From positions 13,593,570 to 13,657,569 of the forward strand of contig NC_049980.1 of NCBI RefSeq assembly GCF_000003815.2: DNA of 64,000 nucleotides, read 5' to 3'. Shown here in pieces: positions 33,015-42,320 of this stretch. Below the pieces are notes generated by a model that was given only the letters and a program-made list of their open reading frames with translations, was not told the origin of the DNA and ran no database searches. The DNA comes from Branchiostoma floridae (lineage: Eukaryota > Chordata > Leptocardii > Amphioxiformes > Branchiostomatidae). Both the position numbers and the translations under genes were made by a program. How positions within the stretch are numbered: position 1 is the first letter of the stretch; every line of letters starts with the position of its first letter.

Positions 33015-33018
33015 TTAA

Positions 33019-33035
33019 AGTGTATAAGACACCCC
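33019..33035 (+). repeat. Left terminal inverted repeat of the transposon
   Basis: AGTGTATAAGACACCCC directly follows TTAA. Confidence 0.85.
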
Positions 33036-33202
33036 AGTGCATCATTATGGGACTAAATCAAACAAAGGTATCACTATACAATCGATATACACATAAGTGA
33101 GAGGTAAACACTGTTCGCCTGTTAAAAACGAAATTTGATCTTCGCGTCACGAGGCTACCGATAGATAGAACGACACGCCTCTGGGCGCGCCTCAACCGGG
33201 AA

Positions 33203-33219
33203 TGACGTAAGCAGTAGAA
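33203..33219 (+). promoter_or_regulatory. Left subterminal motif with a CRE-like site
   Basis: TGACGTAAGCAGTAGAA, 152 bp before the transposase ATG, in a CpG-richer segment than its surroundings. The inverted partner at 39993-40009 matches 16 of 17 bases. TGACGTAA is a known bZIP (CREB/ATF) type site. It could be a promoter element, a transposase-binding site, or both. Confidence 0.55.
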
Positions 33220-33354
33220 GAACGCGGGGGATTCGAGGGATTCCCCGGCGCCATTTTGATTGTTAGTAAACACTGTCCTCAGGAAGACTCCGGCTATTTC
33301 TGAGGGATTTAGTTTGTCCAAGGACGTTATATATAACGCCCTTGGTTTGTCAAC

Positions 33355-36300
33355 ATGCCTACACGGTGTGTCGCAGCGTATTGTTCGAACTACACGTCCT
33401 CTTCGATAAGTCTTCACAAGTTTCCAAACGACGAGAAAGTTCGCGAGAAGTGGGTGCAGAACGTACGGCGGACAAGAGGCCCTGATCGGGAGGGGAAGGA
33501 ATGGACGCCGAGCCCGACCTCTCGGCTGTGTTCCGACCATTTTACAGAGGACTGTTTCGACCCTGCCCAGGATTTGAAGAGATCGTTTGGGTTCAATGCG
33601 AAGCACCGTAGGGAGGTGCTGCCCGGTAAAATTCCAACCATCTTTCCCCGAGGCCCGGCCGAGCCGAAGCGTAGGGAATCACAGGCTGTAGCCAAAAGGC
33701 GTCACCAGGAGGTAAATATGATATTTTGAGTTGTCTTCTGTTTTATCTCGTTGGGATATAACATTAACAGGGCAGCATTTACAGGGGTTATAGTTTCGGA
33801 AATTTTCGTTTGTTTGTTCGTTTGTTTCTTCTTGGTAGTTTTAAAAAAAGAAAAGGAACTGCAGCGAATATCAATAAGCGGCCCCCCTCCCCACTATAAA
33901 CACCGGCTCTCATACACACGCAAATTGTAGAAGGCCGCGGTTACAGAAAGATTAGTTGTCGTGTTTATTTTCATCAGCAGTGAATGTATTTTTTGTAAGA
34001 AATTATGACTTATGAATTATATCTTTTGTCAAATAAATATTATTTGGTCAACAAGGCATGGTATTTGGAAAAAAAATTTATGTACAAAACTCATGAACAA
34101 ACATCACATAACAGAGGTAACACTTGCCAGTAGCCAAGAAAATGTCATACAACAAAACACAATATATGCTGTATTTATAAATAGTAGTCATCAGCTGCTT
34201 ATATTCTATGGTTATAACATGTACTACATTTCTGTGAGCAGAGGCTATAAAGTACTAGAATAATAGGAAAGTTGTATTTATTCAGGGCATGTAAGTGTAT
34301 AGTAAATAATGAAAGGCTATCTTTTTATTGTTATTAGATACTCCGAGAATGTCTATCTGCTGAGCCTGTAGAAGAGGGAGGATCTGATCATGACATCTGT
34401 GCTACTGCGGTGTCAACTGCCAGTGGTCCACCTGTTGATGATGATGATGGTCCACCTGTTGATGTAAGTTTTGACAATAGATCTGTATGTAAGTTTGGTA
34501 GAGCAGATTTATTTCTTAAAATCACATGAATCGAGATAGTGTCGTGGCAGCCAGTCATTCTGTTTGCTTTGTGAATGTCACATGTTTTGAATTTTTTTTT
34601 CATTTTCCATCTTTTTGCTACTGTAGTAAAATATTGGTTGTATGATATAATATAATAAGGTATTGTATATATATTTTGCATTCTTTTATGTATAGGTGAC
34701 TCCAACAGAAAACCAGGGGATACAAGTCCAGCCAGACATGAAATCACGGGCTGTGCAGGCCAGACTGCGAGTGGGGACTTGTAAAGGTATTTTATCCTCA
34801 TTATCAGCTTTCAGCTCCCCACTTGCATTTTAAAGTTTTCTTGTATCCACAAAAATGTCATTGGACCACTTCCTTTCATTATGTATATATATCAATAAGG
34901 ATTATCATTCCTTACAAAGAGTTACAGTATTGATGTATAGTTATATCTGCAGTAAAATGTAGCCCAAAACAAGTATTTTAGACAAACATTTTTTTCTCAG
35001 ATGCTATACACAGAAGTTATATGTACAAACCTGCATTGTTACACAGGGCATCTTTCACTCTGGGATGTTTTTTGCTATATTGTATTAACACAGGTGTGCA
35101 GATCAAGCCTACTGTTACAACTATTGGCATACAGAACAAGCCTTCAGTGAAGACCATCTCCACCCAGACACAGATCACATACAACAACCGGTTGCAGGAG
35201 TTAGATGCCATGTCTGAAGTTTCAGAGCCGGTGGAGGATGCAGCGTACGAGAACGATCCAGACTACGAGCCTATGGAGATATCGGATGATGAGGAGGACC
35301 CACCCGAGGAGGTGCCCATCCCCGAGGCCACGTCAGATACCCTGCCGGACACACGCATCTTCATGGTGTTCTGGACATGTTTGGTGCAGCTGTTCTCCAC
35401 GTGGTGTTGCTGTCCAGCGTGTCCCTCTAGGAAGCTGATTTGGCGCTGTAAGGAAGTCGGGACTCACCTGCTGGTGACATTCCTGTGCAGAGATTGCAGC
35501 TATGAAGATACATGGAGGAGCCAGCCTTCCTATGGCAGGACTGCCGCGGGGAACATTTTGCTGTCATCTGCTATACTGTTCGCTGGAGCCAGTGTGACCA
35601 AGGTGCTTAGAGTCTTGTCACACATGGGCGTGGCCGTTATGTCAACCCGGTCATTCTTCCGCCATCAAGAAAACATCCTGTTCAGGGCCATCCGTACGCT
35701 GTGGAGGGAGCGGCAGTTCTGGATGCTGACAGTCCTGCAAGCCGAGCAAGAGCCCATTGTTTGTGGTGGGGATGGCCGCGCGGATAGCCCAGGACACTCT
35801 GCGAAATATGGAACTTATACAATGATGGAGCTGAAGCAGACAGCTGTGATAGACGTGCAGCTAGTGCAGGTAAATTGTACTCTAACACTGTCTCTTACTT
35901 GTAAAAAGTAAACCATCTGTCATGCTGTTTCATAAGGAACACTAACGCTTGATCCAAAGATAATCTGTGTCTATATGATATCAATATTTGAGGTGACAAC
36001 TCATTAACATATTAACTTGTAAAGAAATGTTCCAGTGTTATCATGCCCCCCTCCCTTCTTCAGTTGTATATTGTGCTGTAGTGGGTTTCAATTGCCATCT
36101 TCCATGTTACAGTAGTCAACATCACAAGCAATATGTGTTACAGAGCAACGAGGTAGACAGCTCCAACGCCATGGAAAAGGAAGGTCTTCAGCGCTCCCTG
36201 CAAAAAATCCAGGAGTATGCAGAAATAGGCACATTGGTCACTGATCGACATGCAGGAATAAACAAGATGATCCGTGAGCAGCATCCCAACATCCAGCACC

Positions 36301-38775
36301 TCTTTGATGTCTGGCATGTTGCCAAAAGTAAGCCTAACCTATTCATACATATTTACTGCTTTACTACTATATTTAGGAGAGGATATTTCTTTACACACCA
36401 ATTATGTTTTAACAGCTTTCCTCGATTTAAAAGAGTTTTTGTTTTGTTTTTCCTCTTTCTTTTCAGTCAGTTTAAGTATTCAAGTGAAACTCCTGGTTCT
36501 CGTGTTATATTAAAGTAATATATGATAAAAATTGAAGAAAAAAAATCATTTTGCACGTCGATGAAGATTAGACATCTAGGCAATAAGATACGCCAAAAAG
36601 CAATTACTCAAGCAACTGGATTTGATTTTGGAAACGGTCAGACGTTTCAAACAAGATCCATTGTTTTTTGTCAGTGACACGTTTCATTTACACTTGTTTA
36701 TTCAGGCATCAAGAAGAAGCTGAAGAAGCTGAGTAAGACGAAAGGCTGTGAAGACCTCAAGGTATGGATTGCCAGTATCATCAACCACCTTTATTGGGCT
36801 GTGACGTCTACACCTCCTGGCAACGGTGACCTCATTGTCGAGAAGTGGAAGTCTGTGCTTCAGCACATTCACAATCGGCACAGGGGCTTTGGCGGGCTGT
36901 TCCCAAGGTGCGCACACGGGCGACTGAGGGGAAGAGAACGGCGCAAGCCATGGCTCTTTTTTCGTAAGTATAAACTATTTTTATAGTACCCTGTAGTTAT
37001 AGTATTTAGCTAAGGTTTATGAGATATAGTTTTGTGTTTGCTTTATTCATTTGCAGGAACTAAGTACACAGGCACATGTTTTCCAGATACGAAGGTCTCT
37101 GTGGAACTGGAGAAGATCGTCTGCAACAAGCAACTATGCAAGGCCTTGAAACGCCTTTCGCCATCCTACCAGACGTCATATCTCGAGGCCTTCCATAGTC
37201 TCATTCTACATTTTGCGCCCAAAATGTACCACTACTCGTACCAAGGGATGGAGAACAGGTAATCGAACCGTAATCTTCTTAAAGATATAAAAGTTCCCCT
37301 GTTTATAAGCAAGTTTTTATGTGAAATAAGCAGCGGTCAATTTAATGCGAATAATTTTCCCAATAATTCTTACTGTTCTTGTTTCTGGGCCAAATGCAGT
37401 AATACTTAGTATTTACATGTGGGTAGCTTTATTGTAGAATGATTACACTGTTTGTGGTCTCATTTCAGGGTAATCCTGGCGGCATTACATTTCAACGAGA
37501 ACGCGCACAGGGCGCAGGCACGGACCAGGGATGGAGATGGCATCTTCAGCATCCACTTCCCCAAGTACAAGCAGGGCGGGCACATTGTTAGGAGAGTGCT
37601 AGAGCAACCAACTTTTGGTAAACTATTGAATCTTTTTGCATGCTTCTACGTTTTGACAGTTCATCAGTTTAACAGTTTTTTTAAAAATAATCTATATTCA
37701 TTTTTCAAAATCAATAGCTGCACATACTGGAATGTACATAGGATTCATAGATTATCAAGTACACTGACAGCCTTAAACACTTAAATCATATGACTTAGAT
37801 ATGCAGATGGATGTCAAAAATAAAATACCAGTCATTCAAAAATAGTAATTAAGAACAAATTGTGTGTGGGCTTCACTAATACAGGCATAATAAGTCAGTT
37901 CAACAGTTTGTTTAATTGCTCATTCACGGTTTTCCATGAACCCGGTGTAGTTAGGAGAGGAAAATGCCCTCCTAATGGTAGACACAACACACGCTGGCAG
38001 AGGGACTCTGATCTCCTTGCCCAAGTGCCCGTAGCACCACCGGACAAACTGCCTGTATGCTGTGTATCTCTTCCACCTGAAACAGGAGACAAGCATTTGT
38101 AATGATACAGGCAATAATCAGAACTCCATTGCAGGGAGGGGAAATGCATATAAAAGTGACAATTGAATTTTGGACAAGTGGAAAATTGGTTCGAGCAAGT
38201 AATTTTTTTTTATATAGTTGCCTGATTAGCGATAGGACTGGTGAATTTTAGAAAACTTGTCCAATCTTGTATTCTTAGTCATATTTACAAATAAATTGAG
38301 AATATTTCCTGCCCCAAACTACTTCATACTTACTCATTTCCAAGATTCTCTCCATATTGGTCCTGGTAGTTGATGTGTGCCACCTCCAGACCATATTCAT
38401 TCAAGCACACCGGCTCAAAGCCGGGGTGCTGAACGATACACTGCAGGCCGTCTCTTTTTTCAGACACTCTGTCTTGCTCATGACAGCAAATGCTCTCAGT
38501 GAGTGTAGGCATCACTTCACAGAGTCCGCAAGTACACCTAGTAGTAAATATGCAACATAACGTTAATTGATTTCATTTAAACTTGGTCTTTATCAGGTTA
38601 CGTCATGGAGCTGGTGGGTCTGGTGAAGCGTATGTGTGGTGGAGAGGACTTCGATGGTGACGTCCTGGAACAACAGATTCCAGAGCCGCTCAGCGCTGCC
38701 TGTGACAGGCCAAACAAGGCAGACGCAGTCAGGAGACACACAACACGTTTTGCTGCAAACAATTTGCAGTACTAG
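33355..38775 (+). CDS. THAP-domain DDE transposase, Kolobok-like (9 exons, 773 aa)
   Basis: Predicted nuclear enzyme that would bind the element's ends and cut and join DNA at TTAA. Exons: 33355-33711, 34338-34463, 34696-34786, 35094-35869, 36144-36327, 36706-36963, 37057-37258, 37469-37617 and 38597-38775, all GT-AG and in phase. Residues 1-97 form a THAP zinc finger with C5, C10, C59 and H62, W33, and the closing IPTIF. Residues ~230-280 are very acidic. The catalytic region has GDGRADSPGHSAKYGTYT (417-434), LVTDRHAGI (481-489), FDVWHVAKS (504-512) and YLEAFHS (639-645). D418 or D422, D484 and E641 are my candidates for the acidic triad. The frame is intact throughout. The gene lies inside TTAA-flanked terminal repeats, so it is probably the element's own transposase and not a domesticated host gene. 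Confidence 0.88.
37920..38537 (-). CDS. P2X7 C-terminal (ballast) domain protein, 2 exons, antisense in the last transposase intron; 5' end missing
   Basis: Exons 38537-38334 and 38076-37920 on the minus strand join at GTAAGT...TTTCAG in phase 2 and end at TGA. The ~119 residues match the intracellular C-terminal domain of P2X7 receptors: a Cys cluster (CTCGLCEVMPT), a CC pair (SICCHE), CIVQHPGF, VCLNEYGLEVA, then YTAYRQFVRWCYGHLG, LPACVVSTIRRAF and a final YTGF. In vertebrate P2X7 this domain is the palmitoylated, zinc- and guanine-nucleotide-binding ballast below the channel. No P2X channel exons are visible. Both exons lie inside the transposase intron 37618-38596. The 5' end is unresolved: the first exon shown starts at an AG and lacks a start codon. 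A candidate upstream exon starting at ATG 39989 runs into the assembly gap. No frame damage is seen. Confidence 0.85.
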
Positions 38776-39200
38776 TAGTGTTTCATCGTAGCTTAGGATG
38801 ACTGGCATGCAGAGAGTGCTAGATAGGTTTTTCCTTAAACAACCAAAAATGGCTGTCAGTATGTCTGTGTCAAAAATCATACTGGTTCATTTTGTACTTA
38901 GCACAATATCAATGTGCTTCTTCACTGATTTTCACTGTACTTTTATATGTGTCGGCCGAGGATATTGATAAAGACACATGACATGTTTTGCTGCAAAGAT
39001 GCAGTGATGTCTGGAACATTGAGATATGTTTACTAGATGACACCTGTCTGAAACCTTTTTTTCATTTTTTTTTCATGTTTCATCCTAGTTATGGATGGCT
39101 GGCAGATGGTGTTAGGTTGCCTTTTCCTGGAACAACCAAAAATGGCTGTCAGTATCTCTGTGTCAAAAGTGATACTAATTCATTTTGTACTTCTTGACGA
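38738..39200 (+). repeat. Direct duplication spanning the transposase C-terminus and 3' region
   Basis: Sequence from ACACGTTTTGCTGCAAA near 38743 to ATTTTGTACTT near 38896 recurs in diverged form from ATGTTTTGCTGCAAAG (38981) to ATTTTGTACTT (39190). Shared landmarks include GTTTCATC, AACAACCAAAAATGGCTGTC and TGTGTCAAAA. The first copy includes the last codons and stop of the transposase. Confidence 0.7.
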
Positions 39201-39841
39201 ATTACTAGCAATTGTTGGTATAGAAAAGGACTAGTGTCTATCTTGACCTCAAAACTTCTCACGTTTTAAATATTGTTGCAAGGTTTGACTATTATAATAT
39301 GTTTCACCTAAGGCTAAGCCAAGGGTGACTGACTTGCACTAATAGCTTGATGATGAAGTTTTCTTACTAGCAGGCAGTGATAATATTAGTAATAGCTAAG
39401 CTTGCAAAGAAATGCTATCTGGTCAGTATCTGTAATAAACACAAGCTGTTTTTGAGACCACACAAGTTGTATAAAATGATGGTATTGAAAAGTTGTTGTG
39501 CAACTAGAGTCAAGAAACCTATGAAAACGTGGAAACACTGCTCATGTGATTTTTGGCAACTTATCTAATATGAAAAAAAAAGAATATCACCAAAACAAAA
39601 TACCAAGTGAAAATCCTCGTCTCTTCAAAACATTACAACCTCTATGTTGGATGTGGATTACTCTTAGAGAACACATATTTGACGGTATAAGACGTGACCT
39701 GATATGTAGCGGCGAAGTTTTGAGCCGAGGGCACCCGTACTATAGGGGAGATACGATCTCACACACACGGACGTAATCACGTAAAATTTGGACTTGAAGT
39801 AAGAAAATCGACGGCAAAGTAAACTATATTAGGTTTGATGT

Positions 39842-39941
39842 NNNNNNNNNNNNNNNNNNNNNNNNNNNNNNNNNNNNNNNNNNNNNNNNNNNNNNNNNNN
39901 NNNNNNNNNNNNNNNNNNNNNNNNNNNNNNNNNNNNNNNNN
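39842..39941. other. Assembly gap (100 N) inside the transposon
   Basis: Placeholder gap close to the right end. A minus-strand frame starting at ATG 39989 enters it, so the N-terminal exon of the ballast-domain gene may be hidden here. Confidence 1.
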
Positions 39942-39992
39942 ATCAGTCCGGTTGTTTGCTGGTTGTGCAGACGAGCGGGCGGTACGCATGCG

Positions 39993-40009
39993 TTCTACTG
40001 TTTACGTCA
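39993..40009 (-). promoter_or_regulatory. Right subterminal motif with a CRE-like site
   Basis: On the minus strand this reads TGACGTAAACAGTAGAA, the inverted partner of 33203-33219. It lies in a CpG-rich segment (about 39942-40075), 4 bp upstream of a minus-strand ATG at 39989. This is consistent with a promoter for the antisense gene facing inward. Confidence 0.55.
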
Positions 40010-40185
40010 CGGCGTCACGTGACTTATTTCTGAGACGGTCGCCGGGCTTGGCCTGGCCCCTCGGGAAAACCACACTTTGAAAGGCCATCAAAACTTTATT
40101 CCGCAATCATGGGGTTTACAATTAACTTCAAAGTATTTTATTGTGTGTACATTTTTGATATTCAAAGGCTTTTCGACTATTAATG

Positions 40186-40202
40186 GAGGTGTCTTATACA
40201 CT
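40186..40202 (-). repeat. Right terminal inverted repeat of the transposon
   Basis: The complement reads AGTGTATAAGACACCTC; TTAA follows at 40203-40206. Confidence 0.85.
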
Positions 40203-40206
40203 TTAA

Positions 40207-42320
40207 GAAGATCGTAGGTACAAGATATGTAAATAAGAGTCCGGATGGCACAAACCCCAGTGAAGTCATTATGGTGTTTGCGGCTTGACATAAATGAGCC
40301 TGATTTCCTCTTTCCCAGGAATAACTATTTCCCCTCATCCGACGGATACATTCTGGCGACGAATCGACGAGCCACATTTTGTTTTGCTCGTTTTCATCTT
40401 TCTGTTAGATCTTCTAGTAATTACTATGTATAAATTGTTTTATTAACCTACCAAGATATTATGACATATTTTAGTGTCAATGCTAAATGTTCATTACCAT
40501 AATCAACAAGAAACTAGAGTTCCACGAACACATATCTTCGCCAAATAAACAATTTCTTTATGAAGATTGTCGTTTTTGAAATGTTGTTAATTTTGGGAAA
40601 TAGATGTTTAATGAAATACTTTTCTAATGTGAGTTTTTGAAATTTATGTGTCTTGTTTTGGAATGCAGTGAATTTATATTGTTTGTGTATTTTTGCCTGC
40701 ATTTGAAATGGTGGCATAGTTTTTGGTATGTCCGTGTGTGTCTGTCTGCCTGTGTTTTTTGCATTTTTGTGGTCAGCATAACTTAAGTATCTTTGGATGG
40801 ATTGTAATGATATTTGGTATGTGGTATCTTTTTACTTGGACATGGTATGGTTTTCTTTTTTGTCGGTAGGTTGCAGGAACGTTGGATTTACATGATATTT
40901 TGCATATTCAATTTGTTACTTTTGGTAGAGATGTACATTTTAAATTGTCAATTATGAAAAGTTGGAGTTAATTAGCATGCTTATTTAGGATGATCTTACT
41001 AGTAGGCACCCAGAGCAGTTTTTAGTGCATTAAAATGGGGAATATTCTGGATGAGACAATCGGTACGATATTGATATTTACTTCACCATACTAGCACATT
41101 TGTATCATTATTTCGTACTTTCAGCGTTTAAAAGGACGCACAAACATGCCGCAAACGAACCCATTTGACTTATTAGGTCCTTCAATAAATCAGCACAGGA
41201 TCGAGCCACTAACGGTTTCCCGTCCGTACTTTTCGGAGATTTTCGAACGTGTGAGGTCACCGAGCGAATTGAATCTGATTCGCCCGTTCGCAAATCGAAA
41301 CCTTATTCGAACAAGTGATATCTCTGGATGCCTTCGGGACTCATCGGTCATGTTTCTTGTCATGGATGTGTCCCAGACCATGCTTTTGAAACTATTAGTC
41401 TTGGGTTTCAGGACTATTCTTAAAATGAAGTATTTGTAAAGTAACAGAATGACTCCGATTTTCACATATGTTATGTAAAACCCAGTCTAGTTAGAGGATA
41501 CTCCTTTATCATTGTATTTTATGAAAAGGTTTTATATCGGTAAGATTTTCTAATGTTATTCAGGTAATATGGCATTACTAGTACATATGTAATGTATGCA
41601 TGCCGGATGATGATGAGTACATGTATACTAGACTGGTCTGAAAACTGATAAGTATATGTTGAATACATGGAGATAGTCTTCGGAATGTAGATAAATTTAG
41701 ATTAGTGACTGAATGCCTGTTTGTAAAGGTGTCTGAACTCAGTTTGAGTCTTTTTCTAATCAGGAACCAACAGTACAGAAGTTGATACATCTACATTCAT
41801 AATATGTGCTTGTAGTGCTGTTTTAGAGTCAAAATGATACACTTTACTAATTGTTAGACTGGAAGTATCAAAGAAAACACCACTGTGTGATTTCCTAGGT
41901 CAATCTATCAGTTTGGGAGGCTCAAGGGTTGGTTGTCAAGTCCTGCCAAAATGATGTAATTAATACTGTGGCTGTCTGGGCCAGATTTTACGCTACCGCC
42001 ATAGCCAAGTCCCAGGAGCCTACAGTGGCTAGGGGCAAACCGCGCTCAGGCTGAAGCGCCTGATGCGGGTTAATATGGCGTGACCACCCCCACTAGCTAG
42101 CTGTCAGGGGTCCTTGTAGGCGACCTATTGACCTACATCTAAAGACACCAGCTGTGGTGCAGATGAATGTACCAACCCAGTATATTGCACTTTATTAAAT
42201 TTCCCTAAATGTTATATTAAATAGATAGTGATTTACATAATTTGCATATCATTATGTTCATAATCACCCAAAGTAACTACCTACCAAAAACAAAGAATAT
42301 CCTACAATCCCCTCTGGAGT
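40207..42320. other. Intergenic, AT-rich, no gene seen
   Basis: A segment near 40511-41000 looks like a dispersed repeat: it begins ACTAGAGTTCCACGAACACA, with relatives near 2765 and 54712. A 97-codon frame at 41146-41439 has no recognisable domain and no splice support. Confidence 0.35.

Follow-up and report, generated by a model that had tools for sequence, protein, structure and literature searches.

Kolobok DNA transposons are marked by a TTAA target-site duplication, by termini of the RR...YY type and by a DDE transposase with C/DxxH between the second D and the last E, and those of the Kol0 lineage encode a second protein, KolX, which resembles the ballast of the P2X7 receptor and has seven cysteines (Kojima & Bao 2022, PMC9587614). 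The same source proposes that P2X7 originated when a P2X4-like gene was fused with KolX. Rump et al. (2020, PMC7016195) describe stand-alone ballast genes from across the animal kingdom, among them those of the nanor-like or ZCD proteins with their C-terminal zinc-cysteine domain, and treat them as host genes. The residues of the P2X7 ballast that contact GDP are R546, H547, R574, R578 and K583 according to that report, which also notes that two of them, R546 and R578, are retained beyond deuterostomes.

In the window, a stretch of 64,000 nucleotides of the Branchiostoma floridae genome, two exons coding for a P2X7 ballast domain lie antisense in the last intron of a transposase gene. We are highly confident that these exons form the 3' part of a KolX gene, carried as the second gene by a Kolobok DNA transposon. 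In common with Kol0 Kolobok elements of the Kolobok-1_XT type (PMC9587614), the element has TTAA, RR...YY termini, a DDE transposase with C/DxxH and a second protein of the ballast fold. It differs from them in the location of KolX, antisense within the last intron of the transposase gene; neither the strand nor the exon order of KolX is given in the passages of PMC9587614 drawn on here. KolobokP, which is described in the same paper, also combines a transposase with a downstream accessory gene on the opposite strand, but its accessory gene codes for a His-Me finger nuclease and its ends are long terminal direct repeats. The link between the P2X7 domain and Kolobok is already known; the nesting is the part for which literature searches on P2X7, ballast, Kolobok/KolX and nested genes listed no report.

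One TTAA-bounded element with two genes on opposite strands

The mobile element spans positions 33019-40202 of the window and is bounded by perfect inverted repeats of 15 bp, the left one beginning with AG (33019..33033, plus strand) and the right one ending with CT (40188..40202, minus strand), in agreement with RR...YY. TTAA target-site duplications flank it at 33015..33018 and 40203..40206. Two further copies were located on contigs C1 and C5. The search with the left flank gave 100% (C1) and 99% (C5) identity to the window from exactly 33015, and that with the right flank gave 100% and 96% identity, respectively, up to exactly 40206. The right-end copies came from a shorter query; the query 39942-41400 was swamped by other repeats (neither C1 nor C5 was among the 40 of 3138 candidates scored). 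An assembly gap of 100 N at 39842..39941 corresponds to 521 bp in both copies, as calculated from match coordinates.

Over the inner stretches compared, the C5 copy was 99.2-99.7% and the C1 copy 99.6-99.8% identical to the window; the KolX intron of the C5 copy is longer by about 312 bases. The C1 copy lacks window positions 34191-37349, a deletion that removes transposase exons 2-7 together with the proposed catalytic residues, and it keeps KolX. In all three copies (window, C1 and C5, on three contigs) KolX is flanked by exons 8 and 9 of the transposase, and its exons differ from those of the window at 2 of 361 bases in C1 and at 1 of 361 in C5. A single TTAA-bounded element therefore holds both genes on opposite strands and moves as a unit, and it has apparently moved recently in the lancelet genome. 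An earlier note on this DNA had proposed TTAA termini, now confirmed at both ends by the boundaries of the C1 and C5 copies, and had placed the domain inside a mobile element that carries it along, which is borne out by three copies sharing their ends and all carrying KolX. The contrary case that it had named, with the domain missing from copies but independently present at the host locus, was not encountered: 3/3 copies have the domain, the catalytically deleted C1 copy included. Since the domain moves with the element in three copies with the same ends, the route that the note suggested, by which the domain would spread and later be captured by a P2X gene, is sound, but it had already been published (PMC9587614).

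The transposase gene was modelled as a spliced gene at 33355..38775 on the plus strand. It has nine exons (33355-33711, 34338-34463, 34696-34786, 35094-35869, 36144-36327, 36706-36963, 37057-37258, 37469-37617 and 38597-38775) and eight introns, all of them GT/AG, and codes for 773 amino acids with no internal stop. Pfam matches were obtained to THAP (1.9e-16) and to Mutator-like transposase (5.7e-13). The putative catalytic residues span 35771..37187 (plus strand, computed positions) and consist of D (codon 35771), D (36243), DxxH (36306) and E (37185); the DxxH reads DVWH and sits between the D at 36243 and the E at 37185, as C/DxxH does in Kolobok transposases, the agreement being one of motif only. 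These four are proposed as catalytic residues by motif.

Both KolX exons are held, on the opposite strand, by the last intron of this model (37618..38596, plus strand, 979 bp, GT/AG), and the host intron named in the earlier note thus proved exact, within an intact frame of 773 amino acids with THAP and Mutator-like matches. If 38597-38775 were not the true last exon of the transposase, the domain would lie downstream of the gene and would not be nested. The exon model was made from sequence alone, and the 979-bp intron is the longest of the gene, which would fit such an error. Nevertheless, the segment 38597..38775 (plus strand) is homologous to the last exon of L025, a KolX locus of one of the two nearest families (45% identity, E 2.9e-11), it is in phase and has GT/AG borders, and its stop falls at a matching place. 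We consider a false last exon very improbable and retain the nine-exon gene with a nested KolX.

Derivatives of the element were also observed. The locus C1:921893-926346 (L035/L036) is a deletion derivative that keeps the THAP exon, exons 8-9 and KolX, and C11:13892169-13892452 is a miniature derivative of 284 bp in which both element ends stand side by side with nothing else. In the C5 copy, the KolX intron (L034 986-1305) contains about 308 inserted bases plus a repeated ATTG; the insert ends with AATAAA and TTCATA repeats and looks SINE-like or retroposed.

The KolX exons and their protein

Exon A of KolX (38334..38537, minus strand) codes for zinc cysteines 1-6 of the seven. Exon B (37920..38076, minus strand) runs to the stop codon and codes for the seventh zinc cysteine and for two arginines aligned with R546 and R578 of P2X7. 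The donor GT starts at 38333 and the acceptor AG ends at 38077, and the exons spliced in frame give 119 amino acids plus a stop. Both exons had been described beforehand as having correct phase and splice consensus, and their borders stood unchanged, with GT/AG and this in-frame product. With the 119-residue protein as query, Pfam P2RX7_C was matched with E 9e-13 and 49.0 bits (cut-off 23.5) over profile positions 82-191 of 192, and E was 5.5e-13 when eight extra upstream residues were taken into the query. The description of the feature as a full P2X7 C-terminal domain is accurate for the ballast part, since profile comparison matched KolX to P2X7 residues 477-591, but it does not extend to positions 1-81 of the Pfam profile.

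In order to compare KolX proteins, seven of them were aligned (window, L025, L031, L019, L017, L028 and L027), and the seven cysteines were invariant in 7/7. These cysteines were paired with those of P2X7 by eye on the alignments. A profile of the seven proteins found P2X7 structures at 9.4e-11, whereas the single KolX of the window reached 0.044 against them. The Kol0 mark, an encoded KolX, was thus recognized from the P2RX7_C match above the cut-off and the profile match to P2X7 structures. The predicted placement of the element in Kol0 is based on KolX and not on a transposase tree.

KolX shares with the cytoplasmic ballast of P2X7 the seven cysteines and the arginines aligned with R546 and R578; it differs in having no P2X channel part and in missing three of the five GDP contacts (H547, R574 and K583; PMC7016195). 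The two that are kept, R546 and R578, are present in all seven proteins, as judged by eye. This count of 2/5 does not exclude membership in the ZCD group, because Rump et al. report the same two residues beyond deuterostomes. The nanor-like or ZCD proteins have the C-terminal zinc-cysteine domain and R546 and R578 in common with KolX, but they were described as host genes, with no word beginning 'transpos' in PMC7016195, whereas the window's domain is inside a transposon.

Between the KolX genes of L025 and L031, dN was 0.16-0.17 and dS 1.4-1.9, which indicates that KolX is, at the level of these coding sequences, under purifying selection between two related families. This inference is drawn from one pair because dS was saturated in the other 4/5 comparisons. 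The A-B intron and the acceptor before exon A were found at the same place and in the same phase in the window, L025 and L031.

KolX loci across the genome

The survey was carried out on a 513-Mb assembly of 431 contigs, in which the window is C2:13593570-13657569, and at least 23 distinct loci with the ballast domain of KolX were counted. This number is a lower bound, as the Pfam genome search missed the KolX of the window and its two copies. Among the 79 matches listed (75 of 89 candidates scored), a transposase match within 10 kb was present on the opposite strand at no fewer than 15 of the 23 loci, on the same strand at none, and was absent at eight, four of which were read over 10 kb and four judged from match coordinates alone. 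With 37 transposase clusters, chance amounts to about 0.0014 per locus. When the distance was extended to 25 kb, one of the eight loci without a match, on C12, had same-strand transposase pieces, at 10.6-21 kb. The enrichment of the domain near transposases that the earlier note had anticipated was therefore found in this genome, with every one of the 15 transposases antisense to KolX.

Reading of 10-kb stretches at 16 KolX loci revealed transposase exons (E up to 0.01) in 12, all opposite KolX; tblastn matches weaker than E 0.01, some of them on the other strand, were excluded from this count. At L021, L023, L029 and L030 no transposase was present within the 10 kb read, and these four loci are candidates for remnants or for host genes. 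Three further families, known from the copy pairs L024/L025, L031/L032 and L017/L018, are bounded by TTAA on both sides and contain transposase sequence as well as KolX; for a fourth, known from the pair L026/L027, one end was seen. The left end of the L025 copy begins with AC instead of AG, which breaks the RR rule.

The loci lacking a transposase bear on the question of whether the ballast domain of the window might be a host gene, P2X7-like or nanor-like, with a transposon adjacent to it or around it by chance. They make up 4/16 of the loci read over 10 kb and would fit such an origin, as would the stand-alone ballast genes that PMC7016195 describes as host genes across animals. The domain of the window, however, is within a TTAA-bounded unit in 3/3 copies on three contigs, and the eight P2X channel (PF00864) matches of the genome are elsewhere, seven on C11 and one at C19:7.12 Mb. 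A host gene with a transposon around it by chance is thus extremely improbable, and the transposon-encoded KolX is the reading followed below.

Two other identities were considered and rejected. For a P2X7 receptor proper, a P2X channel fused to the ballast would be expected, and none of the eight PF00864 matches was at any of the 23 KolX loci. For a piggyBac element with a KolX-like protein, the marks would be a piggyBac transposase and the loss of most of the seven cysteines; no piggyBac match was found at E up to 0.1, and the seven cysteines are present.

Other KolX families have features of their own. L017 (2286-8792) and L018 (1076-7560) represent a family that is bounded by TTAA, carries terminal inverted repeats of about 347 bp and has the ballast domain read in one KolX exon. 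The KolX-like frames at L020 (7295-7999), L022 (1325-1915) and L023 (497-1591) have a long N-terminal low-complexity repeat, either glycine-rich or acidic.

Gene order and the 5' end of KolX

The genes are tail-to-tail at L025, L031 and L032, which represent the two nearest families; there, the last exon of the transposase comes before the stop of KolX. The same order was assigned by weaker last-exon matches at L019 (7e-4), L026 (0.022) and L027 (0.036). The last-exon match of L028 had an E of 0.83 and the last-exon region of L024 is deleted; the comparison of gene order leaves out these two loci together with L017/L018, L020 and L022. Among the families compared, the nested order looks derived and confined to one family alone, in which 3/3 copies have it. 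The mobility of the domain does not depend on its being nested.

The tail-to-tail order of the sister families was probably converted into the nested one by a local rearrangement, for example a tandem duplication after which one of the two copies of each part was lost. Some rearrangement in this region of the element is documented by a partial local duplication past the last exon (38734..39192, plus strand), in which 26 bp from the end of that exon (88%) and 121 bp of its 3' flank (81%) are repeated. Apart from these two short segments no repeated parts were found, and neither a KolX relic past the last exon nor a last-exon relic before KolX was present; hence the origin of the nesting is one that we infer.

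No ATG is present in the open frame 5' of exon A, and within exon A an ATG first appears after the third cysteine. Since, in addition, exon A and the last transposase exon are just 59 bases apart, a further 5' exon of KolX must sit beyond that exon. An exon of the type present in other KolX families, acid-rich and PYxFEP-like, was not found in 38538-40300, nor in the gap sequence of C1 and C5, of which about 195 bases each were searched. The statement that the domain is wholly within the transposase intron thus applies to both exons found, but not to the KolX gene as a whole. By deduction, the last transposase exon, being upstream of KolX exon A, would in turn be inside a KolX intron, and the two genes would be interlocked.

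A 5' exon that escapes detection might also mean that KolX is a decaying remnant in this family, with the 5' exon lost and the other two exons no longer expressed. Its absence from the readable part and the unusual position within a transposase intron are what decay would predict. On the other hand, the frame, the splice sites and all seven cysteines are intact, and about 326 bases of the element, within the assembly gap, are unreadable; the KolX exons also show few differences in C1 and C5 (2/361 and 1/361), although copies so young inform little on selection. Taken together, decay is unlikely.

KolX would have a promoter of its own near the right end of the element. Its product may be a small zinc-binding accessory protein acting together with the transposase, whether as a partner, a DNA binder or an end-pairing factor. 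We regard an accessory role in transposition as an even chance. If KolX does work with the transposase, it would therefore be kept by selection on transposition and not carried as cargo. P2X7 would then be a later fusion of a KolX-type gene to a P2X channel, as Kojima & Bao propose (PMC9587614). With its recent copies in a lancelet, the present element supports the notion that the ballast domain of P2X7 is a protein of transposons. Its copies at the three sites are nearly identical, and one has its transposase frame intact, which makes them a natural source for tests of KolX in transposition.

Interlocked genes would occupy common DNA with no overlap between their coding exons, and the transcription of one could control the last splice of the other. 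Such a built-in brake on transposition is possible in the family of the window, but as a property of the interlocked arrangement we hold it to be doubtful. SAFB proteins are known to prevent the splicing of nested genes and of transposons into host mRNAs (PMC10901741, in passages that do not deal with Kolobok). In an alternative reading, the nested exons would serve mainly as a source of antisense transcription that dampens either the transcript of the transposase or its last splice. It would agree with the opposite strands at 15/15 loci that have a transposase within 10 kb (among the matches listed) and with the overlapping transcription units that follow from the exon order in this family. 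It is difficult to reconcile with the conservation of KolX at the protein level and with the tail-to-tail order, without nesting, of the two nearest families, so that a mainly antisense function is distinctly unlikely. An antisense effect may exist on top of the role of the KolX protein, which remains the preferred reading. If confirmed, the interlocked order would be an unusual way to fit two spliced genes into one element.

A minor observation concerns the 3' end of KolX. On the minus strand, just past its stop, the sequence ATTAAA (window 37911-37916) is a possible polyadenylation signal located inside the transposase intron.
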